Origin: Janthinobacterium sp. TB1-E2
GTDB lineage: Bacteria; Pseudomonadota; Gammaproteobacteria; Burkholderiales; Burkholderiaceae_D
Length of the DNA: 64,000 nucleotides
Direction: 5' to 3'
NCBI RefSeq assembly: GCF_036885605.1
Contig: NZ_CP142523.1
Coordinates: forward strand, 2,046,001 to 2,110,000
Position 1 is the first letter of the stretch. The number at the start of each line of letters is the position of its first letter. Position numbers and translations under genes: made by a program. This document shows, piece by piece, positions 12,192 to 42,937 of the stretch. The notes under the pieces are model-generated. The model saw only the letters and a program-made list of their open reading frames with translations. It had not been told where the DNA came from and did not search any database.

Positions 12192-12204
12192 TTGCATTCC
12201 ATTA

Positions 12205-25796: not shown

Positions 25797-25914
25797 ACGC
25801 CTGGCAAAACCGTCGCGAGCGGAAGGGAGAGGTGGCCGAGAAGCGCAACCGTACGAAGGTACGGTGAGCATCGCAGGCCGCCTATACCGACGCGCAGCAG
25901 GTTTTGGCAGGCGT
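25797..25914 (+). repeat. 118-bp structured repeat, copy A
   Basis: Terminal inverted repeats ACGCCTGGCAAAAC (25797-25810) and GTTTTGGCAGGCGT (25901-25914) match at 13 of 14 positions. Inside, AGGTGGCC pairs with GGCCGCCT, and a hairpin ACCGTAC-GAAG-GTACGGT forms the centre. The same layout and exact length occur at 27041-27158 (inverted) and 42820-42937. It ends 16 bp before the ribB ATG, so it lies in the ribB leader. Confidence 0.9.
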
Positions 25915-25930
25915 CATAAGAGGATGAACA

Positions 25931-27052
25931 ATGTCTATATCCAGCACCGAAGAGATCGTCGCTGAATTGCGCGCCGGCCGCATGGTGATACTGGTCGATG
26001 AAGAAGACCGGGAAAATGAAGGCGATCTGGTGCTTGCCGCCGATTTCGTGACGCCTGAAGCCATCAATTTCATGATCACGCATGCGCGTGGCCTGGTCTG
26101 CCTGACCCTGACGGAAGAGCGTTGCGACGAGCTGAACCTGTCGATGATGACCTCGCGCAACGGCACCGCCTACGGTACCAACTTTACTGTTTCCATTGAA
26201 GCGGCCGAAGGCGTGACGACGGGCATTTCCGCCGCCGACCGCGCCAAGACCATCCAGGTGGCTGTTGCCAAGGGCACGCAGCCCAGCGATATCGTCCAGC
26301 CCGGCCATATCTTCCCGCTGAAAGCGCAAAAGGGCGGCGTGCTGATGCGCGCAGGCCATACGGAAGCCGGTTGCGACCTGACGGCCATGGCCGGCTTGAC
26401 GCCCGCATCCGTGATTTGCGAAATCATGAAGGACGACGGCACCATGGCGCGTCTGCCGGACTTGCTGGTGTTTGCCGAGCAACATGGCCTGAAAATCGGC
26501 ACGATTGCCGACCTGATCCATTACCGCAGCCAGACCGAGTCCCTGGTCGAACGCGTTGCCGAGCGCACCCTGCACACGGCGCATGGCGAATTCCGTTTGA
26601 TCGCCTTCCGCGACAAGCCCAGCGCGTCGGCCCATCTGGCCCTCGTGCATGGCGACCTGGCTCCCGGCCTGGAAGCGCTGGTGCGCGTGCACCAGCCCGT
26701 TTCCCTGCTGGACGTGCTGGAAAGCGAAGCGACCACCCACTCGTGGACGGTGGCCGCCTCGATGGCCGCCATCAAGCAGGCCGAGCGTGGTGTGATGGTC
26801 TTGCTGAACTGCGGCGAGACGTCGAGCGAGCTGTTTGCCCAGTTCGCCGCCCTGGACACGCCGCAAGCCAAGCCGAAAGGCCGCGCCGCCAGCATGGACT
26901 TGCGCAGCTATGGCATCGGCGCGCAAATCCTGCGCGACCTGGGCGTGAGCAAGATGCAATTGCTGGCCAGCCCCCGCAAGATGCCGTCGATGGTCGGTTT
27001 CGACCTGGAAGTAACCGGTTTTCAGTGCCATCCTGGCCAGACGCCTAACTAA
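25931..27052 (+). CDS. ribB: 3,4-dihydroxy-2-butanone-4-phosphate synthase with degenerate GTP cyclohydrolase II-like domain (RibBX type)
   Basis: Makes the four-carbon precursor of riboflavin from ribulose 5-phosphate. The N-terminal half (1-200) is a complete RibB domain with [17 protein letters not shown] and [16 protein letters not shown]. The C-terminal half resembles RibA in outline ([37 protein letters not shown]) but lacks the CLTGDVFGS...CDCG zinc site; the matching stretch reads [23 protein letters not shown] cyclohydrolase II activity is therefore not expected, as in the RibBX variant known from Proteobacteria. A true RibA must be encoded elsewhere. Bracketed by two inverted 118-bp repeats, the second reaching its last codons. 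Confidence 0.95.
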
Positions 27053-27158
27053 ATCTACTGCGCGTCGCGATTTGCGGCCTGCGATGCTCACTGTACCTTC
27101 GTACAGTTGCGCTTCTCGACCACAACTCGCTGCCGCTCGCTACGATTTTGTCAGGCGT
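27041..27158 (-). repeat. 118-bp structured repeat, copy B, inverted
   Basis: Same element as copies A and C but on the minus strand. The arms ACGCCTAACTAAATC (27041-27055) and GATTTTGTCAGGCGT (27144-27158) match at 13 of 15 positions. The central hairpin reads ACTGTAC-GAAG-GTACAGT on the minus strand, so a C-G pair of copy A is replaced by T-A. The left arm contains the last three codons and stop of ribB; the right end is 64 bp before ribH. Confidence 0.9.
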
Positions 27159-27222
27159 CAATGTGAGAGTAAACGATGGCGGCATGTGTGTGTCGCCCTG
27201 AACCACCAGATTAAAGAGGCTT

Positions 27223-27708
27223 ATGATGACAGTAGGAGCATATGAAACCAATTTTGCCGGCGAAGGTTTGCGCGTCGGTATCGTCCAGGCACGATTCAAT
27301 GAAATCGTCGGTGGTGGCTTGCTGTCGGCATGCCTGGAAGAGTTGAGCAAGCTGGGCGTGGCCGATGAAGATATCCTGCACGTGACCGTGCCGGGCGCCC
27401 TGGAAATCCCACTGATTCTGCAAAAAATGGCAGAAACCGAGCAATTCGACGCCCTGATCGCACTGGGCGCCGTGATTCGCGGTGAAACCTACCACTTCGA
27501 GCTGGTATCGAACGAATCGGGCGCGGGCATCACGCGCGTCGGTCTCGATTACGGCATCCCGATCGCCAACGCAGTGTTGACGACCGAAAACGACGAGCAG
27601 GCGGAAGTGCGCATGCTGGTCAAGGGAGCCGAAGCGGCACGCGTGGCAGTGGAAATGGCCAATCTGGCGCAAGCGCTGGAAGAGTTGCAAGACACAGACG
27701 AGGATTAA
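27223..27708 (+). CDS. ribH: 6,7-dimethyl-8-ribityllumazine synthase
   Basis: Joins the RibB and RibD products to form lumazine, the penultimate step of riboflavin synthesis, usually as a large oligomer. The 161 residues carry [45 protein letters not shown] with the catalytic His, and [17 protein letters not shown]. It lies between copy B of the 118-bp repeat and nusB (91-bp gap). AGAGG precedes the ATG; a second ATG follows immediately. Confidence 0.98.
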
Positions 27709-27799
27709 TCGTGCTTGCGCCGCAGTGTGCTGCCTGGCAGCGCACCGCGGTATTCGTCACTATCTGCAGTAAATACGTATTTAAGAACAGGTAACAATC

Positions 27800-28270
27800 A
27801 TGACTGAGAAAAATTTGCTCGCCAATCCCAGCAAAAACCGCACGCCGCGTCACCGCGCGCGCGAGTTTGCGCTGCAGGGCTTGTACCAGTGGCTGCTGAA
27901 CAATGAAGACGCGACCACCGTCGTGAACAATATTCGCGCGGCCCACGGTTTCGACAAGGCCGATGGCGATCATTTCACGGTGCTGCTGTACGGCGCCATC
28001 AAGGATTCGCTGGCGCTGCGCGAAAGCATGGCACCATTGATCGACCGCAATATCGCTGAACTGTCGCCGATCGAACATGGCATCCTGCTGATCGGCGCTT
28101 TCGAGCTGAAGAACAACATGGAAATCCCGTACCGCGTCGTCATCAACGAAGCGGTCGAGCTGGCCAAGTCGTTTGGCGGTATCGACGGCCACAAGTATGT
28201 GAACGGCGTGCTCGACAAGCTGGCAGTGAAATTCCGCGAGGAAGAAGTCAACGCCAATAAGCGCAAGTAA
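27800..28270 (+). CDS. nusB: transcription antitermination factor NusB
   Basis: RNA-binding factor that with NusE assembles the rRNA antitermination complex. The 156 residues begin with RTPRHRARE-ALQGLYQWLLN and contain IEHGILLIGAFELKNNMEIPYRVVINEAVELAKSFGGIDGHKYVNGVLDKLA, the conserved NusB core. It follows ribH, as in many proteobacteria, and is closed by a strong terminator. Confidence 0.98.
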   Translation: MTEKNLLANPSKNRTPRHRAREFALQGLYQWLLNNEDATTVVNNIRAAHGFDKADGDHFTVLLYGAIKDSLALRESMAPLIDRNIAELSPIEHGILLIGAFELKNNMEIPYRVVINEAVELAKSFGGIDGHKYVNGVLDKLAVKFREEEVNANKRK

Positions 28271-28307
28271 TATAGCGTAATCCCTGCGGCTGCTGCCGCA
28301 GGGCAAT

Positions 28308-28343
28308 AAAAAAGCCACCGGCACTTGCGTGCGGTGGCTTTTT
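28308..28343. terminator. bidirectional intrinsic terminator between nusB and the transglycosylase gene
   Basis: A 12-bp stem AAAAAGCCACCG/CGGTGGCTTTTT with an 11-nt loop has T-runs on both strands. A separate GC hairpin (CCCTGCGGC/GCCGCAGGG, 28282-28303) precedes it. It can stop both nusB and the convergent transglycosylase transcript. Confidence 0.92.
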
Positions 28344-28389
28344 CATTGGGTGCTGCTTTTTGGATGCCCCTGTGAGGGCTTTTAAAGGG

Positions 28390-29313
28390 TCACAGGCCGG
28401 CGATCTCGTTGTGGGGTAATACTTTGATGGTGATGCCGCTTTCCGCTACCGCTGCCGGTGCCTTGGCTGGCGCTGGCGTGTTCGATGCCATCACCGGTGT
28501 CGTGGTCGGCACGCGCTGGCCGGCGGACACTTGTTTCAGGCGGCGGTATTCGGCCAGCACGCGCGAGCCGTAGCCCGAGTCGGTGGCGAAGTTGGCGGCG
28601 CCTACGTAGGTTTTCAAGCCCGCTTCGACGGAACCGCCACGCGTGACGTAGTCTTTCAGGATCAGGGAGCCGACGCGGATGTTGGCGACGGGGTTCAGGG
28701 CTGCTTGCACGCCGCCCATTTCCTGGAAGCGCTCATGGTGCACTTTCGACATGACTTGCATCAAGCCTTGTGCGCCGACGGGGCTTTCCGCGAACGGGTT
28801 CAAGCCCGATTCGATGGCCATCACGGCCAGGATCAGCAGCGGGTCCAGCTTGATTTCACGGGCCGTCAGGTACGCCGTCGACACGAGCATATTGGTCGCG
28901 TCGTTGGCCACGCGGTAGCGCTTGGAGAGCCAGTTGGTGACCCATTGCTGCTGCTTTTGCGTGCCCAGCAAGGCTTTTTCTTCCTTGCTCAGCGGCGCGT
29001 CGCTGGCGGCGGCCGTTTGTACGGAAGCGGGCGCTTCCATCAGTGCCGACAGGGCCGGCGCTTCAACGGCTTGCGCTTCTGCCATTGGCAGCGGGAACAG
29101 GCTGTGCGTCAGTTGCTTGCCCAGGTCAGGGCGGAACATCAGCAGGGCGATCAGTGCCAGGGCGGAAATGCCGAAGACTGTCAGTGTGTGTTGCGCAGTG
29201 GTTAAAACGCCACGTGCCGAAATGGCTTGTGCGCGGGCGCGCAAACGCGCCAACGCTGGCTGACCAGCCACGGTTGAAGCAGGTAATGCTGCTTCAGTGC
29301 TACGATGAGTCAT
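28390..29313 (-). CDS. membrane-anchored lytic transglycosylase (SLT domain)
   Basis: Cell-wall enzyme that cleaves the MurNAc-GlcNAc bond with 1,6-anhydro product formation. The 307 residues have an N-terminal membrane helix at about 45-60 and an SLT domain at about 135-260. Catalytic Glu168 lies in LAVMAIESGLNPFAESPVGAQGLMQVMSKVH, and a late NPVANIRVGSLILKDY...YVGAANFATDSGY matches the family. It is monocistronic and convergent with nusB. It could serve pilus or secretion machines, but no such link is visible. Confidence 0.9.
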   Translation of the reverse strand: MTHRSTEAALPASTVAGQPALARLRARAQAISARGVLTTAQHTLTVFGISALALIALLMFRPDLGKQLTHSLFPLPMAEAQAVEAPALSALMEAPASVQTAAASDAPLSKEEKALLGTQKQQQWVTNWLSKRYRVANDATNMLVSTAYLTAREIKLDPLLILAVMAIESGLNPFAESPVGAQGLMQVMSKVHHERFQEMGGVQAALNPVANIRVGSLILKDYVTRGGSVEAGLKTYVGAANFATDSGYGSRVLAEYRRLKQVSAGQRVPTTTPVMASNTPAPAKAPAAVAESGITIKVLPHNEIAGL

Positions 29314-29791
29314 AGAGTTCCCCGAAATGTCGCGTCAACAGGCAGTCCCTCCGCGGTGTCGCGGTGTTGTGGGTACTGCCAATGCCGTGCATCAGAAATA
29401 TCATCGTTTCCGCCGCGTATGGATGCGTGCGAGAAACGCCGTCATTGCTTGCTTGAGCTGATCGGTCCCATGCTGGTATTGGATCAGTCGCAATACAACT
29501 TTTACCGGGGGTAAGGCAGACGCCTTTTGAAAACACTCCTTAAAATGTCATGTGGAGCCCCGACTCCGTGAATGAAAGAGAAACGCTAAAATCAAGCTCT
29601 GGGCCGGCGTGCTCTTTCAAGTTGGGCGAATTGTAGAAGCCGTTTTATATCAAGTCAATACTAAAGAATCGTTTCTTTATTACTTTTATGTCTTACTTTT
29701 TGACTTGCATTGTGCTAAAAGCCAATAAAATCAATTACTTGGCATAGATCCTTCAGCAACGGCGTCCGACGTCAAAAAAAATTAAAAACAC
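29314..29791. other. 478-bp intergenic region upstream of ubiD, AT-rich right half
   Basis: No gene or structured RNA recognised. The last 150 bp are clearly AT-richer than the surroundings and contain TTGACT at 29700-29705 with AATAAA 18 bp downstream, a weak candidate for the ubiD promoter. Confidence 0.4.
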
Positions 29792-31276
29792 ATGAAATAT
29801 TCAGATTTACGAGATTTTATTTCTCAACTGCAACAAATGGGTGAACTTAAGCCCATTTCGACCCCCATTTCACCGATTTTGGAGATGACGGAAGTGTGCG
29901 ACCGCACCTTGCGCGCGGGCGGACCGGCCTTGCTGTTCAATAATCCGACGGGACACACCATGCCGGTGCTGGGCAACCTGTTCGGCACCACGCGCCGCGT
30001 GGCGCTGGGCATGGGCGCGGAAGACGTCAGCGAGTTGCGCAAGATCGGCCATGTGCTGGCGCGCTTGAAGGAACCGGAACCGCCGAAGGATTTCAAGGAT
30101 CTGCTGGGCCTGGGCTCGCTGGTGAAATCCGTGTGGGACATGTCGCCGAAGGAGTTGCGCGGCGCGAAGTGTCAGGAAATCGTTTGGGAAGGCAACGACG
30201 TCGACCTCGCGCGCCTGCCGATCCAGCATTGCTGGCCCGGCGACGTCGCCCCCCTGATCACCTGGGGCTTGGTGATTACCAAGGGGCCGAACAAGAAGCG
30301 GCAAAACCTCGGCATCTACCGCCAGCAAGTGCTGGGACGCAATAAGGTCATCATGCGCTGGCTGGCGCACCGGGGCGGGGCGCTGGACTTCCGCGAGCAC
30401 GCGATTCAAAGCAAGGGCAAGCCGTATCCGATCGCCGTCGCGCTCGGTGCCGATCCCGCTACTATATTAGGGGCCGTCACGCCGGTGCCGGACAGCCTGT
30501 CCGAATACCAGTTCGCCGGCTTGCTGCGCGGCAGCCGCACGGAGCTGGTGAAAGCCATCGGCAGCGAGCTGCGCGTGCCGGCATCGGCCGAAATCGTGCT
30601 CGAAGGCCATATCTATCCGGACGAAAACCATCCGAGCGGCTACGAGCATGCGCTGGAAGGGCCGTATGGCGACCACACGGGCTACTATAATGAGCAGGAC
30701 AGTTTCCCTGTGTTTACCATCGACCGCATCACCATGCGCCGCGATCCAATCTACCACTCCACGTACACAGGCAAACCGCCGGACGAGCCGGCCGTGCTGG
30801 GGCTGGCGCTGAATGAAGTGTTCGTGCCGCTGCTGCAAAAGCAGTTCAGCGAAATCACCGACTTCTATCTGCCGCCCGAAGGCTGCAGCTACCGCATGGC
30901 CGTGGTGCAGATCAAGAAACAGTATGCGGGCCACGCCAAGCGCGTGATGTTTGGCGTGTGGAGCTTCTTGCGCCAGTTCATGTATACCAAGTTCATCGTC
31001 GTGGTCGACGAAGACGTGAATATCCGCGACTGGAAAGAAGTCATCTGGGCCATCACCACGCGTGTCGATCCGATCCGCGACACGACCCTGGTCGACAACA
31101 CGCCCATCGACTACTTGGACTTCGCCTCGCCGGTCAGCGGTCTGGGCAGCAAGATGGGTATCGACGCGACGAATAAATGGCCGGGCGAAACGACGCGCGA
31201 ATGGGGCACGACGATTGCCATGACGCCGGAAGTGAAGGCCAAGGTGGATGGGATTTGGCAGGAGCTGGGTTTATAG
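29792..31276 (+). CDS. ubiD: 4-hydroxy-3-polyprenylbenzoate decarboxylase UbiD
   Basis: Prenylated-FMN-dependent decarboxylase of ubiquinone biosynthesis. The 494 residues match UbiD length. Seen: [12 protein letters not shown] start, [30 protein letters not shown] in the cofactor-binding region, [34 protein letters not shown], and [18 protein letters not shown]. The cofactor-making partner UbiX is not in the window. Downstream lies a REP doublet, then the SRP RNA. Confidence 0.96.
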
Positions 31277-31284
31277 GTAGTGAC

Positions 31285-31393
31285 GTAGGTCGGCTTAGCG
31301 CGCAGCGCGTAAGCCGACGTTGCGGTGCTTGCTTGTTCGTGGTTTGCTTGCTCAGTAGCGTCGGCTTACGGCCTGCGGCCTAAGCCGACCTAC
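31285..31393. repeat. REP-like palindrome doublet 1
   Basis: Two hairpins share the arm GTCGGCTTA/TAAGCCGAC (31289-31318 and 31360-31389), separated by about 40 bp and bounded by GTAGGTC and GACCTAC in inverted order. Further truncated copies of CTACGCC(G/C)ACC follow to 31413. This is the layout of paired REP elements (BIME). It starts 8 bp after the ubiD stop. Confidence 0.85.
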
Positions 31394-31455
31394 GCCCACC
31401 TACGCCGACCTACTCAGCATTCACACGGCAATTTCCCAATCTTGCGCAGGTCGGT

Positions 31456-31461
31456 TATAAT
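31456..31461 (+). promoter_or_regulatory. -10 element of the SRP RNA promoter
   Basis: A perfect TATAAT lies 7 bp before the expected 5' end of the SRP RNA. The -35 at about 31432-31437 (TTTCCC) is weak. Confidence 0.6.
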
Positions 31462-31467
31462 TGTCCT

Positions 31468-31567
31468 TGGCGGGCCCCTGCGCATCGTGGCATGGCTAAC
31501 CTGGTCAGGTCGGGAACGAAGCAGCCACGGCTATTAACCATGAGTGCCGCAGATCAGGCTCGCCTCC
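31468..31567 (+). ncRNA. ffs: signal recognition particle RNA, small bacterial type (4.5S)
   Basis: About 100 nt with the conserved helix-8 core: GGTCAGGTCGGGAACGAAGCAGCC, interrupted here only for naming, contains the GGAA tetraloop-like turn and the asymmetric loop bases that bind Ffh. Flanking halves pair (GGCGGGCC... with ...GGCTCGCC). Exact ends are estimated. A terminator follows at 31598-31620, and dnaX starts about 240 bp downstream, as in other betaproteobacteria. Confidence 0.93.
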
Positions 31568-31597
31568 TTCGGGAATGTTTTATCAGGATCAACAATC

Positions 31598-31620
31598 AAG
31601 CTGCCATGGGCAGCTTTTTT
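31598..31620 (+). terminator. intrinsic terminator after the SRP RNA
   Basis: An 8-bp stem AAGCTGCC/GGCAGCTT with a 3-nt ATG loop runs into a stretch of T to 31622. Confidence 0.9.
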
Positions 31621-31806
31621 GCTTTTACGGCCCCGTTTTCTTGTCGATCCGCAGCATTGCCGGGCTTGCCGTGTTTTCACTGTTTCTAGCTGGCCATGTT
31701 ATACAATTGCTGCTTTGCCGCGTTTGCCAGATTTGTCCTGGCCCGGCCATGAGGCTTGCGCCCGCCGCGCAGGATCACCCGCAAAATCGCATGGTAAAAT
31801 CTCAGC

Positions 31807-34137
31807 ATGTCCTATCAAGTCCTCGCCCGTAAATACCGCCCCAAGAATTTCGAGACGCTCGTCGGCCAGGAGCACGTCGTGCGCGCGCTCACGCATGCCT
31901 TGCACAGCGGCCGATTGCATCACGCCTATCTGTTCACGGGCACGCGCGGCGTCGGCAAGACGACCCTGTCGCGCATCCTGGCCAAGTCGCTCAATTGCAT
32001 CGGCCCCGATGGCACGGGCGGCATCACGGCCCAGCCTTGCGGCCAGTGCGAAGCGTGCACGGCGATCGACGCGGGACGCTTTGTCGACTATATAGAGATG
32101 GATGCGGCGTCGAACCGCGGCGTCGATGAAATGGCGCAGCTGCTCGAGCAAGCCGTGTATGCACCAAGCAATGCGCGCTTCAAGGTCTATATGATCGATG
32201 AGGTGCACATGCTGACGAACCACGCGTTCAATTCCATGCTCAAAACCCTGGAAGAACCGCCCGAGCATGTCAAGTTCATCCTGGCCACGACGGACCCGCA
32301 AAAGATTCCAGTGACCGTGCTGTCGCGCTGCCTGCAGTTCAACCTCAAGCAGATGCCGCCCGGCCACATCATCAGCCACCTGGACAATATCCTGGGGCAA
32401 GAGGGCATCACCTTCGAACAGCCGGCCTTGCGCCTGCTGGCCCAGGGCGCCCACGGCTCCATGCGCGATGCGCTGTCCCTGACGGACCAGGCCATTGCCT
32501 ACGCGGCCGGCGCGGTGACCCTGGACGCCGTGCAAGGCATGCTCGGTGCGCTCGACCAATCGTACCTGGTGCGCCTGCTCGACGCGCTGGCGCAGCAGGA
32601 TGGCGCCGATCTGCTGGCCGTGGCCGACGAGATGGCGTCGCGCAGCCTGTCGTACAACGGCGCCCTGCAAGACCTGGGCACCTTGTTGCACCGCATTGCG
32701 CTGGCGCAAACCGTGCCCGCCGCCTTGCCGCAGGATTTACCCGAATACGCGGACATCGTCCGCCTCGCTGCCGCGTTTGACGCGGAAGAAGTCCAGCTGT
32801 TTTATCAGATCGCCGTGCATGGCCGCAATGAACTGGGCCTGGCGCCCGACGAATATGCGGGCTTTACCATGACCTTGCTGCGCATGCTGGCCTTTCGGCC
32901 CGGCATAGGCGGCGCCGAAGGTGTACCTGCTGCCGCGCCAGCTTCTGTATCGGGCAATCGTCCTGCTGCCGTGGCCGCCGCGCGCGCCGCGGCCGGCGCA
33001 TCCGCACCGGCCGCCCGCGCCGCCACGAACAGCGTGGCCAGCCATGCAGCCGTGACCCCGCCCGCCGTGGTCGCAGCCGCTGCCGCCAGCATGGCCCGCA
33101 GCGAAGCGCCGCCACCACGCGCGGCCGCTCCGGCACCGGCACCAGCAGCTGTAGCCGCCCCGGCGCCAGCACCAGCAGCGCCGCCACCTGCCGCTCCGGC
33201 TGCGGCCGCCCCGGCAGCTTCGGGCGCCCCCATCAGTTCCGCCCGCGCCGCCATCAATGCGGCGCTGGAAGCGGCCCGTGCCGCCTCGAAAGGCCGTCCG
33301 GGCAGCGCGCCATCGGCGCCATCGTCGGCGCCCAAGCCGGCTGCCCCCGCACCGGCAGCGGAACCTGTCTCCGCAGCGCCAGTGGCACCGGCCGCACCGG
33401 TCCAGGCAGCACCGCCACCACCCGCCGCCGCGAAAGCGCCTGCGCCGTGGGACGATGCGCCACCGGTCGCCGTGATGGAAGCGCCAGTGGCCGCTACGGC
33501 ACCCGTGCAGCAGGCGCGTCCTGCCGCGCCGCCGCCACAGCAGGCGCCCGCCGACGACGACTTGCCGCCGTGGGTCACCGAATTTTCCGACGACAGCGCC
33601 TCGGCTGCCGTGTCGGCGCCCGCCGCGCAAAGCAGCGAACAGCCGGCCGTCATCATGCCGCAGCGTGCCGCCAAGCAAGCTGCACCGAGCGGGCCATATG
33701 TGATTACACCCGTGCCGGGCCTGGACTGGGACGGCAACTGGCCAGCCGTTGCCGCCGTGCTGCCCCTGCGTGGCATCGCCCAGCAACTGGCCGTGCAGGC
33801 CGAGCTGATCGAATGCCTGCACGACGGCCACAGCACGACTTTCCGCCTGCGCGTGCCGATCGATACGTGGCGCAGTCCGGCCAACGTGGAAAAACTGGCG
33901 GCCGTGCTCAGCGAGCGCTTCGGCCGCAAGGTCAATGTCGACACGGAACTGGGCGCCGTCTGGTACACGGCCAGCGCGGAAGCGCAGGCCCACCGCGAGG
34001 CGTGCCAGCTGCAAGCGGAAGAAACCATCGCCAGCGATCCCTTCGTGCTCGACATGAAGCGTGCATTCGACGCTTTTGTTGTGCCGGGAACGATTACCCC
34101 TGCACCGGCCGGCTCCGCCGCGCCGACCCTGCATTAA
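31807..34137 (+). CDS. dnaX: DNA polymerase III subunit gamma/tau
   Basis: Clamp-loader ATPase and polymerase organiser. The 776 residues begin with an AAA+ module: Walker A GTRGVGKTT with Lys51, zinc module Cys64/Cys78/Cys81/Cys84, DEVHMLTNHAFNSMLKTLEEPP near 135, and the sensor/arginine-finger region TTDPQKIPVTVLSRC. Residues about 375-610 are an Ala/Pro-rich linker, followed by a C-terminal tau domain (LDWDGNWPAVAAVLPLRGIAQQLA onward) that should bind DnaB and the polymerase. No A-rich slippery site for a programmed shift to gamma was noticed. Confidence 0.97.
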   Translation: MSYQVLARKYRPKNFETLVGQEHVVRALTHALHSGRLHHAYLFTGTRGVGKTTLSRILAKSLNCIGPDGTGGITAQPCGQCEACTAIDAGRFVDYIEMDAASNRGVDEMAQLLEQAVYAPSNARFKVYMIDEVHMLTNHAFNSMLKTLEEPPEHVKFILATTDPQKIPVTVLSRCLQFNLKQMPPGHIISHLDNILGQEGITFEQPALRLLAQGAHGSMRDALSLTDQAIAYAAGAVTLDAVQGMLGALDQSYLVRLLDALAQQDGADLLAVADEMASRSLSYNGALQDLGTLLHRIALAQTVPAALPQDLPEYADIVRLAAAFDAEEVQLFYQIAVHGRNELGLAPDEYAGFTMTLLRMLAFRPGIGGAEGVPAAAPASVSGNRPAAVAAARAAAGASAPAARAATNSVASHAAVTPPAVVAAAAASMARSEAPPPRAAAPAPAPAAVAAPAPAPAAPPPAAPAAAAPAASGAPISSARAAINAALEAARAASKGRPGSAPSAPSSAPKPAAPAPAAEPVSAAPVAPAAPVQAAPPPPAAAKAPAPWDDAPPVAVMEAPVAATAPVQQARPAAPPPQQAPADDDLPPWVTEFSDDSASAAVSAPAAQSSEQPAVIMPQRAAKQAAPSGPYVITPVPGLDWDGNWPAVAAVLPLRGIAQQLAVQAELIECLHDGHSTTFRLRVPIDTWRSPANVEKLAAVLSERFGRKVNVDTELGAVWYTASAEAQAHREACQLQAEETIASDPFVLDMKRAFDAFVVPGTITPAPAGSAAPTLH

Positions 34138-34179
34138 TGATTAACAAAACTCATAAACTGAATTGAACGGAGCATTCTC

Positions 34180-34506
34180 ATGATGAAAAATCAACTGGCT
34201 GGCCTGATGAAGCAGGCGCAAGCAATGCAAGACAACATGAAAAAAGCCCAGGAACAACTGGCGCTGGTGGAAGTGGAAGGCCAGTCCGGCGCCGGCCTCG
34301 TGAAAATCGTCATGACGTGCAAGAACGACGTCAAGCGCGTCTCCATCGACCCGTCCTTGCTGGCCGACGACAAGGACATGCTGGAAGACCTGGTGGCTGC
34401 CGCCTTCAACGACGCCGTGCGCAAGGCGGAAGCGACCTCCGCTGAAAAAATGGCAGGCTTGACTGGCGGCATGAACTTGCCAGCCGGCTTCAAAATGCCA
34501 TTCTGA
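34180..34506 (+). CDS. ybaB: nucleoid-associated protein YbaB/EbfC
   Basis: Small DNA-binding dimer, conserved between dnaX and recR. The 108 residues show [27 protein letters not shown], the [31 protein letters not shown] core, and a Met/Gly-rich tail ([18 protein letters not shown]). GGAG lies upstream of the ATG pair at 34180. It sits 42 bp after dnaX and 47 bp before recR. Confidence 0.97.
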
Positions 34507-34553
34507 TGCACTACCGCATGCGCTCGATCTATGGCACGGGGCAAGGTTGATCC

Positions 34554-35144
34554 ATGTCCAAGTCGCTTGAATTCTTGACCGAGGCGCTGCGGCGCCTGCC
34601 CGGCGTCGGCCCCAAGTCGGCGCAGCGGATGGCGTTTCATTTGTTGCAGCACGATAGGGAAGGCGCGGCCATGCTGTCGCGCGCCCTGTTCCAGGCCGTC
34701 GATGCCGTGCATCACTGCGGCCTGTGCAACACCTTTACCGAACATGAAGTGTGCGAGACCTGTCTCGACGAAGAGCGCGACAAGCGCTTGCTGTGCGTGG
34801 TGGAAACGCCCGCCGACCAGCTGATGATCGAGCAGACGCTGACCTACAAGGGCCTGTATTTCGTCCTCATGGGACGGCTCTCTCCGCTGGACGGCATCGG
34901 CCCGAAAGACATCCACCTTGAAAAATTATTGAACCGCGCCAACGATGGCGTGGTCGGCGAAGTGGTGCTGGCCACCAACTTCACGAATGAAGGCGAAGCG
35001 ACGGCCCACTACATCAGCGAAATGCTGAAGGCGCGGGGCTTGCGCGTGAGCCGCCTGGCCCGCGGCGTGCCCGTGGGCGGCGAACTGGAATACGTCGACG
35101 CGGGCACGATTGCCCGCGCGATGCTCGACCGCAGGGCAACCTGA
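34554..35144 (+). CDS. recR: recombination mediator RecR
   Basis: Acts with RecF/RecO to load RecA on gapped DNA. The 196 residues contain the N-terminal helix-hairpin-helix ([21 protein letters not shown]), the zinc finger Cys55/Cys58/Cys67/Cys70, and a Toprim domain ([32 protein letters not shown]). It forms the expected dnaX-ybaB-recR group and is followed 7 bp later by a CoA-transferase gene, probably co-transcribed. Confidence 0.98.
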
Positions 35145-35151
35145 TTACAAC

Positions 35152-36372
35152 ATGACAGAATCCTCCGCGACCACTGGTCCATTGCAAGGCATTAAAGTGC
35201 TGGAACTGGGCACCCTGATCGCGGGGCCGTTCTGTGCCCGCATGCTGGCTGAATTCGGCGCCGACGTGATCAAGATCGAGTCGCCCGATGGCGGCGATCC
35301 CATCCGTACCTGGCGCGTACTGAAGGATGGCACCTCGCTGTGGTGGTCGGTGCAGGCGCGCAACAAGAAAAGCGTCACCCTGAACCTGAAGTCGCCGGAA
35401 GGCCGCGCCATCGCGCGCCAGCTGGCCCTGGAAGCGGACATCATCATCGAGAACTACCGCCCCGGCGTGCTGGAAAAGTGGGATCTCGGCTACGAACAGC
35501 TCAAGCAGATCAAACCATCCCTCATCATGGTGCGCCTGTCCGGCTTTGGCCAGACGGGGCCGATGAAGGATTTGCCCGGTTTCGGCGCCATCGGCGAATC
35601 GATGGGCGGCTTGCGCTATGTGTCCGGCTTTGCCGACCGTCCGCCCGTGCGCGTCGGCGTATCGATCGGCGACTCCGTGGCGGCCTTGCACGGCGTGATC
35701 GGCGCCATGATGGCCTTGCGCCACCGCGATGTGACCGGTGGTGCGGTCGCTGGCGAAGGGCAGATGGTCGACGTGGCCCTGTACGAATCCGTGTTCAACC
35801 TGATGGAATCCCTGGTGCCCGAATACGACCAGGCGGGCGTGGTGCGCGAGCGCACGGGCGGCTCGCTGCCCGGCATCGTGCCCTCGAATACCTACACGAC
35901 GGGCGATGGCGAAAATATCGTGATTGCCGGCAATGGCGACGCCATCTTCAAGCGCTTGATGCTGGCCATGGGCCGCATCGACATGGCGGGCGACCCGCAA
36001 CTGGCGCGCAACGATGGCCGGGTCGCGCGCACGCAGGAAATCGACGACGCCATCGGCGCCTGGTGCGCCAAGCACACGATAGACAGCGCGCTGGCCGTGC
36101 TGAAGGCGGCGGATGTGCCGGCCGGCAAAATCTACTCCGTGCGCGACATGATGAGCGACCCGCAATTTCTTGCCCGCGAGATGTTCGAGCAGCATCAGTT
36201 CCCTGACGGCACACCCGTCAAATTGCCCGCCATCAGCCCGAAACTGTCCGCCACGCCGGGCAAGACGCAGTGGCTGGGGCCGACTTTGGGCCAGCACAAC
36301 GACGAGGTGCTGGCGTCGCTCGGCTACGATGCGGCGGCCATCGCGCGGCTGAAGGCCGATGGGGTGGTGTAG
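35152..36372 (+). CDS. CaiB/BaiF family (class III) CoA-transferase
   Basis: Transfers CoA between organic acids through an aspartyl-CoA intermediate. From the ATG at 35152 (406 residues) the landmarks are LQGIKVLELGTLIAGPFCARMLAEFGADVIKIESPDGGDPIR, NKKSVTLNLK, ENYRPGVLEKW, RLSGFGQTGP, and GEGQMVDVALYESVFNLMES with the catalytic Asp near residue 207. The 14 extra upstream codons lie over the recR end and look unconserved. Substrates cannot be read from sequence; the wording is close to the formyl/succinyl-CoA group. A REP doublet follows. Confidence 0.92.
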   Translation: MTESSATTGPLQGIKVLELGTLIAGPFCARMLAEFGADVIKIESPDGGDPIRTWRVLKDGTSLWWSVQARNKKSVTLNLKSPEGRAIARQLALEADIIIENYRPGVLEKWDLGYEQLKQIKPSLIMVRLSGFGQTGPMKDLPGFGAIGESMGGLRYVSGFADRPPVRVGVSIGDSVAALHGVIGAMMALRHRDVTGGAVAGEGQMVDVALYESVFNLMESLVPEYDQAGVVRERTGGSLPGIVPSNTYTTGDGENIVIAGNGDAIFKRLMLAMGRIDMAGDPQLARNDGRVARTQEIDDAIGAWCAKHTIDSALAVLKAADVPAGKIYSVRDMMSDPQFLAREMFEQHQFPDGTPVKLPAISPKLSATPGKTQWLGPTLGQHNDEVLASLGYDAAAIARLKADGVV

Positions 36373-36390
36373 TGGAATGATGTCGGGAAG

Positions 36391-36489
36391 GTAGGTCGGA
36401 TTAGCGGCGGCGCGCCGCGTAATCCGACGCCACCGCTGGCCAAATTAATAATGTTGTCGGCTTACGCGCTTCGCGCTAAGCCGACCTAC
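36391..36489. repeat. REP-like palindrome doublet 2
   Basis: Left hairpin with arms GTCGGATTA/TAATCCGAC (36395-36428), right hairpin with GTCGGCTTA-type arms ending TAAGCCGACCTAC (36456-36489). The A/T versus C/G change in the left hairpin occurs on both arms. Same layout as doublet 1 after ubiD. It lies between the CoA-transferase and the phytase-like gene. Confidence 0.85.
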
Positions 36490-36510
36490 GCAACTCATCT
36501 GATATCTATC

Positions 36511-37644
36511 ATGCATCGTTTTTTTCACCGTGCGCTTGTCCTGGCATCCAGCACTATCCTCCTCTCCGCCTGCGCCAGCTTCCCGCATGACGCGCCGATT
36601 ACGGGCCTGCGCCTGATCGGCGAGCAGCGTATCGCGCTCAGGCAGGCGTTCGAGGGCACCACAGTGGGCGGCTTGTCCGGCATCGATTACGATGCGGCCA
36701 ATAAGAGCTGGGTGATGGAAAGCGATGACCGCTCGGAAATCAATCCGGCCCGCTTCTACCGCGCTGTCTTGAATTACGACAGCAAGGCGTTCGCGGGCGT
36801 GACCTTGAACAGCGTGCATTTCTTCACGCAGCCCGACGGCAGCCGCTATCCGAACCTGGCGCATGCAAAATTGGATCAGGGCGACCAGGTGGCCGATATC
36901 GAAACCATCCGCGTCGATCCGCAGGATGGCAGTCTGTGGTACGGCAGCGAAGGCAACCGCAAGGTGGGCCTGCATCCGTTCGTGCGTCATGCCGACAGCG
37001 GCGGCCGTTACCTGGCCACCTTGCCGACACCGGCGATGTTCAATGTCTCGAAGGACGAGGTTGGCTCGCGCAACAACATGACGTTTGAAGCGCTGTCGTT
37101 TGCCAGCGATGGCAAGAGCCTGTGGCTGGGCATGGAAGCGGCCCTGTACCAGGATGGCCCGCTGGCCACGCCCGACAACGGCTCCATCGTGCGCATCACG
37201 CGCCTGGACCGCGCGGGCAAGGTCCTGGGCCAGTATGCGTATCCGGTCGAGCCGGTGGCGTCGCGGCCCGGGCCCGGACGCGAGGCGGACAATGGCGTGT
37301 CGGAAATCCTCGCCGTCAACGACCATCAGTTGCTGGTGGTGGAGCGGGCCGGCGTGGCCAACGCGGACGGCGTCTATACGAACCACGTGCGCATCTACGA
37401 AATGGAAACGCAGGGCGCCACCGATGTGCAGGCGCTGCCGGCCCTGGCGGGCGCGTCCTATGTGCCGGCGCGCAAGCGTTTGCTGCTGGACCTGGAAAAG
37501 ATCGGCCTGGCACGGGTCGACAATATCGAAGGCATCAGCTGGGGGCCGCGCCTGGAAAACGGCCGCCGCAGTCTGGTTTTGATTTCCGATGACAATTTTA
37601 ATCCGCTGCAAGTCACGCAAATCCTTGCCTTCGAAGTGCTCTAG
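36511..37644 (+). CDS. esterase-like activity of phytase family lipoprotein
   Basis: Exported lipoprotein with a phytase-like beta-propeller domain. From the ATG at 36511 (377 residues) the signal peptide ends in lipobox LSAC with Cys21. The phytase-like domain runs from about residue 40: [86 protein letters not shown] and [11 protein letters not shown] are typical. Enzyme activity of this family is poorly defined. The 20 extra codons upstream are REP sequence, not gene. Its 3' end overlaps the convergent GGDEF/EAL gene by 32 bp. Confidence 0.9.
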
Positions 37645-39772
37645 TTTCCACGCTGGCCAGCTGCTTCGTCTGCCTGGCCAGCATGGCCGTGATCGTGTCG
37701 TGCGGCGACGGGTAGCCCAGGAAATAGCCTTGCACCATGTCGCAGCCGTATTCTTCCAGCATCACCAGCTGCTCATCCGTTTCCACGCCCTCGGCCACCA
37801 CCACCATCTTCAAACCATGCGCCATGGCGATGATGGCGCGCGTGATGGCCGCGTTTTCCGCATCCTGCGGCAAGCCGGCGATAAAGCTCTTGTCGATCTT
37901 CAAGGCCCGCACGTCGAAGCGTTTCAGGTAATTCATTGACGAATAGCCTGTGCCGAAGTCGTCGATCGACAGGTACACGCCGATGCCGCGCAATTGCTCC
38001 AGGGTCACCATGGTGGCGCGCGCATCGTCCATCAAGGTCCCTTCCGTCAATTCCAGTTCCAGCAGGCGCGCATCGAGGCCCGTGTCGGCCAGGGCCGAGA
38101 GCACGATCTGCATCAGGTTTTCATCTTTGAATTGCTTGGCCGACAGGTTGACGGCCATGCGGATGGCGCGCCCGCTAGCGTTTTGCCACGCCTTGGCCTG
38201 GTTGCAGGCCGTGCGCAGCACCCATTCGCCGATGGGCACGATCAACCCCGTCTCTTCGGCCAGCGGGATGAATTCCGTGGGCGAAATGATGCCCCGTTCC
38301 GGATGGCGCCACCGCACAAGCGCTTCCACGCCGACGATCTGCGTGCTGGGCACGTCGATCTGCGGCTGGTACAGCAAATACAGTTCGTTGTTCTGCAAGG
38401 CTTTCCTCAAACCCACTTCCATCTTGACGTGGCTCATGATTTCCATCGTCAGCGAAGAGCTGTACAGCTTGGCATTGTTCTTGCCGCAGTTCTTCGCGTG
38501 GTACATGGCCGTGTCCGCATATTTGAGCAGCGAGTTGCAGTCCTCGCCATCTTCCGGATACAGCGAGATGCCGATGCTGGCCGTGACGAAAATCTCGTGC
38601 GCCTCAATCATGAACGGCCGGCGCATGGCTTCCTTGACCCGGTGCGCCACGTTCAGCGCATCTTCCACCCGTTCCAGGTCGGGTATCAATATCGTGAATT
38701 CGTCGCCACCCAGGCGCGCCAGGTTGCTGCCGCCAAAGACGCCATCGAGCTCGTATTCGGCGCGCAGCACCAGGTCGCTGGGGCGGATGGTTTCGCGCAG
38801 GCGCTCGGACACCACCTTGAGCAAATGGTCGCCCACGTCGTGGCCCAGGGTGTCGTTGATGCGCTTGAAGGCATCGAGGTCCATGAACAGCACGGCGAAT
38901 TTCTTGTCGTGCTCTTTCGAGCGCACCAGTTCGCGCTCCAGGGTTTCCAGGAACGCCTGCCGGTTGGGAATGCCCGTCAGGCTGTCGCAATAGGCGAGGC
39001 GGCGGATCTGCTCCTCGGTGCGCTTGCGCTCGCTGATGTCGCGCACCAGTCCCAGCACTTCATCGGCCCCCGTCGCCACCAGGCGCGCTTCGAAGTGGCG
39101 CGTGCTGTCTTCGTGCGTGAGCGTGTAGTCGACCGAGCCGATGTGCTGCGTGGCCAGCACGGCGTGCGTCTGGTCGAGCAGGCGCGCGGCGATTTCGGGC
39201 GGCAGCACGTCGCGGATATGGCTGCCCACGCAGTCGGTGATGGAAAAGCCGGCGCTGGCATCGTGACCCTGCTCGTAGTCGAGATAAAAACCTTCGCTGT
39301 TGAGGCGAAAGAAGGTGTCGGGGATGGCGGCCAGCACGGCGCGGTTGTGCGCGTCGGCGATGCGCAGGCGAGCGATCGCGTCGCTGGCGCGCAGCACGTA
39401 CAGCACGCGGTGGCCGAGGATGGGCCAGTTGATGGGCTTGGAAATGAAATCCGTCGCGCCCACCTCGTAGGCGCGCGTAACGGCTTCCAGCTCGTCGCCG
39501 CCCGTGACCATGATGATGGGTACCGTGCCGCCCACTTCCTGGTGGCGGATTTCGCGGCACACGGCAAAGCCGTCCATGGCCGGCATGTCGACGTCGAGCA
39601 TGACGAGGTCCGGGCCGCTGTGCTTGTAGCTGGCCAGCGCCTGCACGCCATCTTCGGCCTCGATCACGTCCAGGCCCACCTGCGTGAGCATTTGCCGCAT
39701 CAGCAAGCGCATGACGGGATCGTCGTCGGCCACCAGCACCAGGCCGCGGGGAGGGGAGAGGGGCGCTGTCAT
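37613..39772 (-). CDS. response regulator with REC-PAS-GGDEF-EAL domains
   Basis: 719-residue cyclic-di-GMP signalling protein. Seen in order: receiver domain 10-130 ([14 protein letters not shown], phospho-Asp in [13 protein letters not shown], Lys in ISKPIN), PAS at about 145-275, GGDEF at about 285-450 with an intact [12 protein letters not shown] near 356, and EAL at about 465-705 with [13 protein letters not shown] and [16 protein letters not shown]. Both catalytic motifs are intact, so synthesis, hydrolysis or both are possible. An RPSD I-site-like motif is separated from GGDEF by about 15 extra residues ([12 protein letters not shown]). It starts 1 nt after the hybrid kinase stop; the two probably form a phosphorelay pair. 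Confidence 0.93.
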
Positions 39773-39773
39773 G

Positions 39774-42635
39774 TCAGTGTTCCTTCACGAGGATGGCGTT
39801 CAGCGATTCGCGTACGGTCAGGAAGGTTTGCTGCATCTGCTGCAGCAGGAGAGCCGCGCCCTCGGTGCTGCTAGCGCGGCCCAGTTTTTCCATTTCCTTG
39901 CACAGCTGCGCCAGGCTGTCGGCACCCACGTTGGCGCTGCCCGACTTGAGGCTGTGCGCCACCTTGCGCAGCGCTTCCGCATCGGCGCCGGCAATCGCCG
40001 CGCGCATGGCGCTCAGCTGGCGCGGCGTCTCGCTGGTAAAGGCGAGGATGACCCGCTCGAGCAGCGCATCGCCATCCGTGCCGGACAGGGCGCGGATGTT
40101 TTCCAGCGCCTGCCGGTTCAGCGGCTGGGCCGATGTCGGCGTTTGCTCGGGCGGCGGTGCGGGCTGCACCTCCACAGGCGCTTGCCGCTCCGGCGCTTCG
40201 CTGTGGTGCACGGTGGCCGCGCGCGGCAGGGTGATCCAGCGGGCGATGGTGTGGCCCAGGTCCTGCTGCGTGAACGGCTTGCTCAGGTAATCGTCCATGC
40301 CGGCCGCCAGGCACGCTTCGCGGTCGCCCTGCAGCGCATTGGCCGTGATGGCGACGATGGGCAGCACGCGCGCGTGGCCGCACTGCTGTTCGTGGCGGCG
40401 GATTTCCGCCGTGGCGGCAAAGCCATCCATTACGGGCATCTGGCAATCCATCAGGATCAAATCGAAATCCTCGGCCTGCGCCGCCTGCAAGGCCTGTTCG
40501 CCGTTGCGCGCGCAGACCACGTCCAGGCCCAGGCTGTCGAGCATGGCCAGCGCCACTTCCACGTTGACGGGATTGTCCTCGGCCAGCAGTACGCGGCGGC
40601 GCTGGCGCCGGCCCACTTGCCGCGCCGCATGCGGCGGATGGATGCGCATGCCCTCGCTGGCGCGCGGCGGCGTGACGATGCAGTCGAACAGGTCGCATTC
40701 GCGGGCCGGCTTGATCAGCTGGAAGGCCACGCCCGCCTCGCGCCGCTGCACCGGGTCGGCTGCCGCCTGTTCGGTACTCAGCAGCAGTAATTTGAGGTCG
40801 GCCAGCAGCGGGTCGCTCTTGATGGTGGCGGCCAGGGCCAGGCCGCTGGTGCGCGGCAATTCCATGTCGAGCAGCGCCACGCCATACGGCGTGCCCGCCT
40901 GCGCGGCCGTGTGCAGCTTGGTCAGGCAGTCGCCGGCCGTGCCGGCGCTGTCGCTGACGATGTGCCAGCTGGCCAGTTGCCGCTCCAGCACGGCGCGCGT
41001 GGCCGGTGTGTGGTCGACGATCAAGGCGCGTAACCCTCGCGTGGTTTTCAGGTTGAAGGACGGGTCGTCGCTGTCGACTCGCCGCTTATCGAAATTTACT
41101 TCGAACCAGAAGATCGATCCTTGCGTTAAAGCATTATCAACGCCGATAGTGCCGCCCATCAGTTCCACCAGCTGTTTCGAAATTGTCAATCCCAGGCCCG
41201 TGCCGCCGTGCTTGCGCGTGGTCGAGCCGTCCGCCTGCGAGAACGATTCGAAGATGCGCGTCTGCGCCTCGCTCGATACGCCGATGCCCGTGTCGTGCAC
41301 CTCGAAACGCAAGCCCACGCTGGGCGCGTCTTCGCTGCACACGGTCACTTTCACGGTGACCTTGCCCGTTTCCGTAAACTTGATGGCGTTGCCCAGCAGA
41401 TTGACGATGATCTGGCGCAAACGGTTCGGGTCGCCGCAGATGGCGATGGGAATGTCAAACGCGATGTTGAATTCCAGGCTGATGTTTTTCGCTTGCGCCT
41501 GCGGCGCGAACACGTGTTCTATGTCGTCGAGCAATTCGCGGAAATTGAAGCGGATGTATTCCACGCTCAGCTTGCCCGCCTCGATCTTGGAAAAGTCGAG
41601 GATGTCGTTGATGATCACCAGCAAATTCTGCCCCGAGCGCTGCACCATGCTCGTGTAGTGGCGCTGCTGCGGGCTCAAAGGGCTGGCCAGCAGCAGCTCC
41701 GTCATGCCCAGCACGCCATTCATTGGCGTGCGGATTTCATGGCTCATGGTGGCAAGAAACGCGCTCTTCGCCTGGCTGGCGGCCTCGGCCGCATCCTTGG
41801 CCTTTTCCAGCTGCGCCGTGCGCACTCCCACTTGGCGCTCGAGCTGGTCGCGGTAATTGGCCAGGGTGCTGTCGCGGCTGTCGATCTGCGCCAGCATGTC
41901 GTTGAAACTGTCGATCAGCACGCCCAGCTCGTCGCTGCGCTGGTGCGCGATGCGGTGGCTGTAGGTCTGGCTGCTCGACACTTTTTGCGCCGTGTCGATC
42001 AGCTTGGTGATCGGTTCGGCGATCACGCTTTTGAAACGCCGCGCGAGGAACACGGCGATCAGGAAGGACAGCACGGTGGCGCCGCCGATGGCGCCCACGT
42101 GGCGGCCGATGTCGCGCCACATGTGGTTCAGGTCCGTCTCGATCAGCACGGCGCCGATCAGCTGCTGCAGCTGCTGCTCGCCTGGCCGGTAGACGGGGCG
42201 GTACAGGCGCATGGCGGGCGCCAGGGTCGTGCCCGTGCCTTGCGTGACGGGCTGCACGGCCATGTCGGCCAGCAGGGCCGGGTCCAGGTCCTCCGGCGTG
42301 GCCAGGCCATCGGCATGCTGCGGCGCGCGGTACAGGGCGAACAGGCGCCCGTTCCGGTCGAAAAGGGCCGCCTGGGCGACCTCGTCGCGCGCGGCCAGCG
42401 CGGCCAGCACCTGTTCCGCCTGCGGCTGCGCCGATTTGCCTGCCAGCAAGGGCGCCGCGCTGGCCGCACCGATCACGCCCGCCAGCGACAGCAGCTGCTT
42501 GCCTTCATCGTCCTTGTGGCTGAGCACGGACGTCAGCGCAAACGCCACGAACACCAGCAGCAGCGCGCAGCCCGACGACAGTACCGAAATCATGGTCAGC
42601 TTCTGGCTGATGCTGGAGCGTTGGAAATTGAACAT
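39774..42635 (-). CDS. BarA-like hybrid sensor histidine kinase (HAMP-HisKA-HATPase-REC-REC-HPt)
   Basis: 953-residue membrane kinase from the ATG at 42633-42635. N-terminal helix at about 15-38, periplasmic part, second helix at about 165-185, HAMP, H-box [23 protein letters not shown] (His near 297), N-box [19 protein letters not shown], and G-boxes. Then a first receiver with a conserved LLDMELP Asp but altered N-terminal acid pocket (IVDHTPATR), a second canonical receiver ([29 protein letters not shown]), and an HPt domain ([17 protein letters not shown]). A GTG start 25 codons upstream at 42710 is possible. It sits next to a GGDEF/EAL response regulator, suggesting phosphorelay control of cyclic-di-GMP. 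Confidence 0.93.
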
Positions 42636-42775
42636 GGTTGCGGCGCTTCTCCGGTCGGACTGTTGACTGTTTTTTAATTTCCTATTGGAAAAATATAGAC
42701 GCGAAGACACACCATGATATTGATGTGGGTCTAAGGAAGGAGAGGGGAGGGAAACTTATACGAGATGAAACAAAT

Positions 42776-42799
42776 AGGGCGGTCTCGCAAGACCGCCCT
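42776..42799 (-). terminator. hairpin downstream of ybdD, probable terminator of cstA-ybdD
   Basis: A perfect 10-bp stem AGGGCGGTCT/AGACCGCCCT with a 4-nt loop. T-rich only weakly on the minus strand (ATTTGT). It lies between copy C of the 118-bp repeat and the kinase start. Confidence 0.55.
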
Positions 42800-42819
42800 C
42801 AAATTATTGCTGAGCTACA

Positions 42820-42937
42820 ACACCTGATCCAGCCGTAGCGAGCGGAAGGGAGAGGTGGCCGAGAAGCGCAACCGTACTAAAGTACGGTGAGCATCGCAGG
42901 CCACCTATACCGACGCGCAGTAGGCTGGGGCAGGTGT
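42820..42937 (+). repeat. 118-bp structured repeat, copy C
   Basis: Arms ACACCTGATCCAGCC (42820-42834) and GGCTGGGGCAGGTGT (42923-42937) match at 13 of 15 positions although their sequence differs from copies A and B. Inside, AGGTGGCC pairs perfectly with GGCCACCT and the centre is ACCGTAC-TAAA-GTACGGT. It lies 8 bp beyond the ybdD stop. Confidence 0.9.

Follow-up and report, generated by a model that had tools for sequence, protein, structure and literature searches.

The 64,000-nt stretch of Janthinobacterium sp. TB1-E2 DNA analysed here (the window; NCBI RefSeq assembly GCF_036885605.1, contig NZ_CP142523.1, positions 2,046,001 to 2,110,000, or G000:C1:2046001-2110000, in a genome that is a single contig of 6.31 Mb) carries three copies, A, B and C, of a 118-bp hairpin-forming repeat. 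The repeats are probably non-autonomous miniature inverted-repeat transposable elements (MITEs) of the IS5 family of insertion sequences (ISs). The element would insert at a TNA target and duplicate it, a step that has statistical support, and would be mobilised by an IS5-type transposase acting in trans, with one of its strands adopting a fixed shape on top of an otherwise ordinary transposon plan; the copies that fold would become the parents of new copies, and the folded strand, as single-stranded DNA (ssDNA) or RNA, would take part in propagation.

Copies A (25797..25914, + strand), B (27041..27158, − strand) and C (42820..42937, + strand) are full hairpin elements of 118 bp each (122 bp for A including 2 outer nt on each side), and their alignment is free of gaps once they are oriented to the strand of A, as the first-pass annotation of this DNA had stated. 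In copy A (+ strand throughout) the outer arms P1 (25797..25811, of sequence ACGCCTGGCAAAACC, and 25900..25914), which form the terminal inverted repeat and resemble the IS5-family ends GAACACCTAACAAAACC and GAACGCCTAACAAAACA, enclose internal loop 1 (5′ strand GTMGCGAGCGG at 25812..25822; 3′ strand CGCGCAGYA at 25891..25899), both strands of which are strongly conserved blocks in 35 copies of the same genome. There follow the inner stem P2 (5′ strand 25830..25837, 3′ strand 25876..25883), both strands of which are supported by two-sided changes (each of the 10 pairs of helix 5 shows such changes in at least one member of the family), internal loop 2 (5′ strand GAGAAGCGCAA at 25838..25848; 3′ strand TGAGCATCGCA at 25865..25875; from the 35-copy alignment) and the apical hairpin P3 (CCGTAC GAAG GTACGG, 25849..25864), as derived from folding and covariation. 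Each outer 15-nt arm pairs with its own partner (14/15 positions in A, 13/15 plus one G-T in B, 13/15 plus one T-G in C), the inner stems of the three copies are AGGTGGCC/GGCCGCCT, TTGTGGTC/GGCCGCAA and AGGTGGCC/GGCCACCT, and an apical C-G pair is replaced by T-A in B with retention of the 4-nt loop. These pairings had all been noticed in the first-pass annotation, which quoted the left arm of B as it stands on the + strand, the version on the family strand being ACGCCTGACAAAATC.

A blastn search with copy A found 40 places in the genome, 3 of which were fragments and were dropped. A covariance model (R1) built on 35 blastn-found copies (alignment A2) gave 60 matches at E ≤ 0.1 over the same genome, namely 47 copies, 11 reverse-strand shadows and 2 short remnants; the 47 copies, a number beyond chance, score at least 61 bits, and 46 of them span the whole model. 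When folding was compared with that of 200 shuffled sequences, A, B, C and a fourth copy, L013, beat all shuffles (z values of −7.9, −7.3, −8.7 and −5.5, respectively), as did the reverse strand of A (−5.8). Changes on both sides are found at 27/40 pairs in the 35 own-genome copies and at 33/40 in 84 aligned copies (82 distinct), so that the covariation first proposed from three sequences is genuine and reaches many copies and genera. Across the 84 copies 96.2% of the cells are paired, as compared with 28–41% when the partner is slid by 1–3 columns, and 685 cells are changed on both sides against a shuffle mean of 184. Both internal loops, with the shared unpaired blocks that had been taken for a recognised core, rank among the most conserved parts of the 35 copies.

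On one strand the fold follows a plan in which stems of free sequence connect two conserved internal loops. The family strand outfolds its complement in 80/84 copies when treated as RNA and in 82/84 when treated as DNA, and on it G-T outnumbers A-C by 263:28 among copies (P1, 54:14; loop-1 pairs, 77:2; P2, 103:5; loop-2 pairs, 3:1; P3, 26:6). Alignments A3–A6 were fitted to the structure; in an alignment made from sequence only, without the structure, the ratio is 119:14, with G-T in excess of A-C in 26 and the reverse in 3 of the 40 pairs. The covariation of P1 may come in part from recognition of the ends, which does not hold for that of P2 and P3 or for the G-T polarity.

The point at which pairing is selected was addressed by comparing copies within one genome with the same insertion across genomes, binned by the number of differing base pairs. 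The paralogues were 37 own-genome copies (666 pairs), all retrieved in the blastn search with A, and the set leaves out the 3 fragments and the 10 copies that the model alone detected; the orthologues (196 pairs) were 15 copies at site A, 9 at B, 10 at L003 and 5 at L024, leaving out internally deleted copies (3 at A, 3 at B and 1 at L024). Among paralogues with at least three differing pairs, 46–58% of the differences are double and compensated and 11–15% are single and broken, as opposed to 1–4% and 50–67%, respectively, among orthologues. For P1 alone the double-paired fraction is 62% in paralogues versus 0% in orthologues, and for the inner helices 49% versus 5%. When each distinct state is counted once per site, the orthologues comprise 39 single-broken, 20 single-paired, 2 double-paired and 1 double-broken differences. 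New single changes from a Watson–Crick pair in place are 11 G-T, 11 A-C and 22 other mismatches, and the equality of the first two implies that the excess of G-T among copies is no mutation bias of these sites. At four Janthinobacterium sites the copies decay out of pairing in place. Taken together, compensated paralogues and decaying orthologues suggest that pairing is filtered as copies beget copies, and, as far as sequence comparison goes, it seems to be selected during propagation rather than kept at each site. The earlier view that the fold is 'maintained or copied' therefore stands in its second half, the copied form appearing folded, and is not supported in its first at the four sites, which drift out of pairing. 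Smaller in-place sets gave 2 double-paired and 16 single-broken of 32 differences (the g22 site, 3 copies), 1 and 2 of 4 differences (the groEL site, 2 copies), zero differences (the pstB pair), and 1 double-paired and 1 single-paired difference (L041/L045).

These data bear directly on the possibility that each repeat is a functional RNA (riboswitch-like, a small RNA or a terminator) that was spread by duplication and is kept for a local role. An RNA-like fold with conserved internal loops, strong covariation, a strand polarity with G-U and the site of a distant clade of metagenome-assembled genomes (MAGs), at which 13/37 pairs are compensated, all agree with it. It is nevertheless improbable in view of the prevalence of broken over compensated differences at the four Janthinobacterium sites, and of the orientation of the folded strand, which is antisense to the adjoining gene in about half of the copies, so that the gene's own mRNA would bear the weaker complement. 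Furthermore, the paired columns of site A drift, their nucleotide diversity (π, 0.078) being below that of the four-fold sites of ribBA (0.132) and above that of the whole ribBA gene (0.046).

The paired changes could instead be mutational in origin, if the element were single-stranded during copying and one arm served as the template on which the other was repaired (template switching, palindrome correction). Replacement of loop 1 in L086 and L109 by a sequence almost perfectly complementary to the other arm would fit such a process, as would a recurrent 13–14-nt insert that is situated 3′ of the apical stem in certain copies and turns up in others, in reverse-complement form, in the P2 5′ strand. 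However, repair in a DNA hairpin should purge G-T like A-C, yet G-T is about nine times commoner; double changes are rare in place; and the loop blocks are conserved though correction would erase them. Templated repair is thus given a similarly low probability.

The family is mobile, with a TNA-type duplication, as shown by comparison of orthologous loci (the 30 best-matching of 40 Janthinobacterium genomes) and of copy flanks. The element-free sites that the first-pass annotation had proposed to look for were found at the A, B, L003 and L024 loci. Site A, in the rib region, is full in 15 loci, internally deleted in 3 and element-free in 12. At site B, 9 loci are full and 3 partly deleted, 6 show the same flanks but no element (lost or never gained) and 12 are differently built; site L003 is filled in 10 and empty in 15, with another stretch of about 1.4 kb in 3 and 2 not resolved; site L024 is filled in 6 (one internally deleted), occupied by another repeat in 3 and empty in 21. 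The other repeat (L306–L308, in three Janthinobacterium genomes) is a GTAG-type palindrome, GTAGGTCGG..., at the same place past the end of the same gene.

In a scan of left and right 3-mers, positions −5..−3 and +2..+4 were equal in 21 cases against 6.3 expected. At these offsets, which were picked after the scan, TNA occurs on the left in 55, on the right in 58 and on both sides in 23 of 206 distinct copies, and the middle base of the both-sided cases agrees in 16/23 against 7.3 expected (P 0.0002, 20,000 shuffles, uncorrected for that scan). Pairing continues for 2 nt outside the 118 nt (165 versus 108 and 102 versus 67 of the 206 copies), with a slight third position (98 versus 85) and none beyond. 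By taking into account this 2-nt excess and the TNA agreement, the unit is taken to be 122 bp (2 nt, the 118-nt hairpin and 2 nt) with a duplicated TNA, and its terminal inverted repeat is 17 bp long. Copy A follows the pattern TAA CA [..] CA TAA, the putative target duplication lying at 25792..25794 and 25917..25919 (both TAA, + strand).

Some individual loci may be mentioned here. L169, L179 and L197 (Zoogloea, Thauera) have GA as the outer 2 nt, as in the IS described below, and identical TNA on both sides, with differing arms. Tandem head-to-tail copies 4–8 nt apart are present in L058 (two), L095 (two) and L192 (three), the triple copy following a gene that reads like an ABC-transporter ATPase. 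Downstream of a pstB-like gene in one genus, at what appears to be a single shared site, L053 and L061/L065/L066 have wholly different arms and inner stems, which suggests replacement or a second insertion.

A scan for the arm led to an 896-bp IS of the same genome (G000:C1:588090-588985), one end of which matches it exactly; this IS has TTA on both sides and the ends GAACACCTAACAAAACC and GAACGCCTAACAAAACA already mentioned. Its two overlapping frames, at 588159-588976, match NF033580 (transpos_IS5_3) with 106 bits for the first, just under the cut-off of 110 bits, and 125 bits for the second, and also match Pfam DUF4096/DDE_Tnp_1. Both arms match the IS end at 12/15 or more in 16/38 rows (37 own-genome copies, one counted twice), the average with shuffled arms being 5.4. 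With arms that are the ends of an IS5-family IS of the same genome, an IS5-type transposase acting in trans would be the likely mobiliser. A relative was found in 469 plasmid records, of which five were examined: three (two of Cupriavidus and one of Roseomonas) have equal TNA-type flanks and ends GA....CTAACAAAA or near, that of J. lividum has matching ends with unequal flanks (TTA and TAA), and for that of Massilia only one end was found.

Placement was analysed for the 177 copies that are flanked by 700 nt on each side, using a crude gene finder (open frames of at least 300 nt with a third-position G+C excess). The stop codon of a facing frame lies 0–4 nt from the right end in 64/177 copies, with a mode of 2 nt (30 copies), and it is inside the element in 24 more (within the first 13 nt in 23 of them); these 24 had been classed as lacking a right-hand stop within 10 nt. 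About half of the 177 are thus directly at a stop codon. Only 4/177 have a stop at 0–4 nt on the left, and no facing frame ends within 300 nt on the right of 87 copies and on the left of 100. Right-hand frames stopping within 300 nt use TAA (32), TGA (32) and TAG (26), with the distance peak at 2 nt for TAA and TGA and at 1 nt for TAG. With a slightly different rule and a limit of 60 nt, gene ends lie on the right of 92 copies (62 at 0–4 nt) and on the left of 41 (mostly at 10–19 nt), gene starts on the right of 19 and on the left of 39, and 45/177 copies have no neighbour on either side. With its right end at a facing stop, the element often has a folded strand that is antisense to the gene ending there. 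In the window, copy A is followed after 16 nt by the start codon of a ribBA-like open reading frame (ORF; 25931-27052, gene name by inspection), the stop codon of which (27050-27052) is contained in an arm of copy B, and a small minus-strand ORF (42946-43149) has its stop codon (42946-42948) 8 nt from the right end of copy C.

Such a location raises the question of whether the fold serves the host gene, as a structure of the antisense transcript that blocks antisense transcription into the gene at its stop codon. The 64 copies with a stop at 0–4 nt and the 24 with a stop inside, the antisense orientation of the folded strand and the use of all three stop codons would be in keeping with this role. 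Less probable than either of the explanations considered above, it is opposed by the lack of a U-tract after the hairpin (by inspection), by the in-place decay in Janthinobacterium and by the 19/177 copies, such as A, that have a gene start on that side.

As to the spread of the element, the model matched 59/116 sampled genomes and 33/44 genera of the GTDB family (E ≤ 0.001), with 1 to at least 31 copies per genome (up to 31 candidates being scored per genome), and 35/398 sampled genomes of the phylum (E ≤ 1e-4; up to 9 candidates per genome). Hosts among the matches listed are Janthinobacterium, Massilia, Telluria, Herbaspirillum, Ralstonia, Zoogloea, Thauera, Variovorax and Solimonas. The loci gathered from the surveys of the family and of its relatives, one set of which comprises at least 120 loci, are a non-random sample. 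Searches by blastn with copy A of 72,556 plasmids and 50,697 phages gave no match, and one viral contig (L209) fits the core pattern. All 22 exact copies of the loop-1 5′ block found when a larger element bearing it was sought are known copies of the repeat, as are 18 of 22 blocks with one mismatch, 4 lying outside. No replication-strand bias is apparent in the genome (10+/14− in one half, 10+/13− in the other, with the origin assumed near coordinate 1). In the Rfam scan of the window no copy was matched at the gathering threshold, and nothing overlapped A or B up to an E value of 10; a ZMP/ZTP riboswitch was matched at 12203-12327 on the + strand.

Relatives of 137–139 nt (L247–L254, L257, L259, L269, L084 and L087) appear, by inspection, to carry one more internal loop, a third, together with another apical module. 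They occur in other genera, orders and classes, and the phylum also has shorter forms without loop 1 (by inspection). The loops look like exchangeable modules. The 13–14-nt insert, GGGGCGCCGAGCC-like, follows the apical stem in L030, L037, L271, L272, L276, L277 and L305, and its reverse complement is in the P2 5′ strand of L111, L127 and L181.

Several observations weigh against an IS5-type MITE propagated through its folded strand. A DDE transposase acting on double-stranded DNA (dsDNA) supplies no reason for one folded strand, and TNA targeting alone leaves the sharp stop-codon peak and the fixed orientation unexplained. By inspection, the interior of the IS of the same genome has neither the loop-1 nor the loop-2 blocks, its ends alone being common to the element; many MITEs share no interior homology with their IS. 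A relative of the transposase (E ≤ 1e-15) is present in 5/26 element-bearing genomes and in 1/3 Janthinobacterium genomes, and among the genomes with transposase relatives that were looked at outside Janthinobacterium no matching partner IS was shown: the one IS end found in G079, GAGCGCCTAACAAAACC, agrees with the local arm GCACCTCGAAAAACC at 11/15 positions (by inspection), and the ends of the IS5 relatives in G026 and G071 are different, those in G026 being unlike the arms of its element. The IS ends of relatives at L347 and L350 were looked for and not found. Moreover, 183/206 copies are without TNA on both sides, and the copy pairs compared within and across genomes share history, their counts being non-independent. 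As for selection in place, 8 loci of the f39 clade of distant MAGs, chosen because they share one site, next to a gene that reads as CysO/MoaD-like, have 48% double-paired and 20% single-broken differences, with a G-T:A-C ratio of 32:2. There, close pairs differ by single changes and distant pairs by blocks of double changes, a pattern that makes repeated insertion possible; it may reflect either that or local function with selection in place. The L072/L075 pair in place (2 copies), with 7 double-paired and 3 single-broken of 10 differences, could also reflect selection in place. A loop-2-bearing variant was seen at one site in MAGs of another class (L255, L256, L258, L261, L262, L264, L265 and L267), between genes that read as CysO/MoaD-like and NIL-domain-like. 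A bolder proposal, which is tentative and on present evidence rather unlikely, is that the repeats belong to a mobile class found throughout the Pseudomonadota, in which a specific folded strand (RNA or ssDNA) with exchangeable internal-loop modules would be required for transposition by an otherwise ordinary dsDNA-cutting IS5-type transposase, and the members of which would be targeted to stop codons with one set orientation.

The least probable explanation, a repetitive extragenic palindromic (REP)-like element moved as folded ssDNA by an HUH transposase (Y1, or REP-associated tyrosine transposase, RAYT), would account for the one-strand fold, the GTAG within loop 1, the location just past stop codons and the GTAG-type repeat at the L024 position in three genomes, and is countered by the duplicated TNA target (HUH transposition is not known to make one), by arms that match an IS5 end and by the lack of linkage to a RAYT, given that none of the three Y1_Tnp genes of the genome is by a copy and that tblastn with them found no RAYT at the loci searched.

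Among known systems, particular IS5 subgroups target TNA, probably those of the IS1031/ISL2-like type. One study gives ANT as the target of bacterial IS5 and TNA as that of a related eukaryotic group (PMC4482050). The element is like IS5-family ISs of the TNA-target type (NCBIfam NF033580) in its terminal inverted repeat of the form GARCRCCTAACAAAACC and in its 3-bp TNA duplication; it is unlike the IS, which is 896 bp long with a transposase and in which its internal loops and fold were not seen by inspection. MITEs are a kind of element already known in bacteria, another being, reportedly, MITEAba12 of Acinetobacter. Those such as QMITE2 of Coxiella are described as short, non-coding and stem-loop-forming, with terminal inverted repeats and a target duplication (PMC10969869). 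The present element is likewise short and non-coding, with terminal inverted repeats and a target duplication, and differs in an interior with conserved loops and covarying stems, a preferred strand and a fold kept across genera. The IS5-like ends in this genome and a TNA target make it an element of known kind despite the absence of an Rfam match; in the open-access literature, at the level of titles and abstract openings, no description of this element family was found. REPs and bacterial interspersed mosaic elements are palindromic intergenic repeats, some near a stop codon (PMC2817692); unlike them and their RAYTs, the element is 118 nt long, with two internal loops and a duplicated target. 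Its likeness to integron attC sites lies in an imperfect hairpin at a stop codon with the antisense strand folded. In attC the hairpin is directly past the stop codon, the bottom (antisense) strand is the one folded, and 7-nt R boxes are present at the ends. The element differs from attC in that it is scattered beside housekeeping-like genes and, by inspection, has no conserved core box: no conserved 7-nt R boxes were recognised at its ends, the arms varying freely.

Covariation is usually taken to prove that a functional RNA resides where it is seen, and here it is found between copies, with decay within a copy. The contrast between covariation among copies and decay in place provides a general test by which hairpins that move can be told from RNAs that stay at their site. 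Should copying depend on the fold, an IS5-type element would be making use of a structured strand, something unexpected in that family. Finally, by being placed in a fixed orientation at stop codons beside many genes in several genera, the element may shape gene ends in many bacteria.

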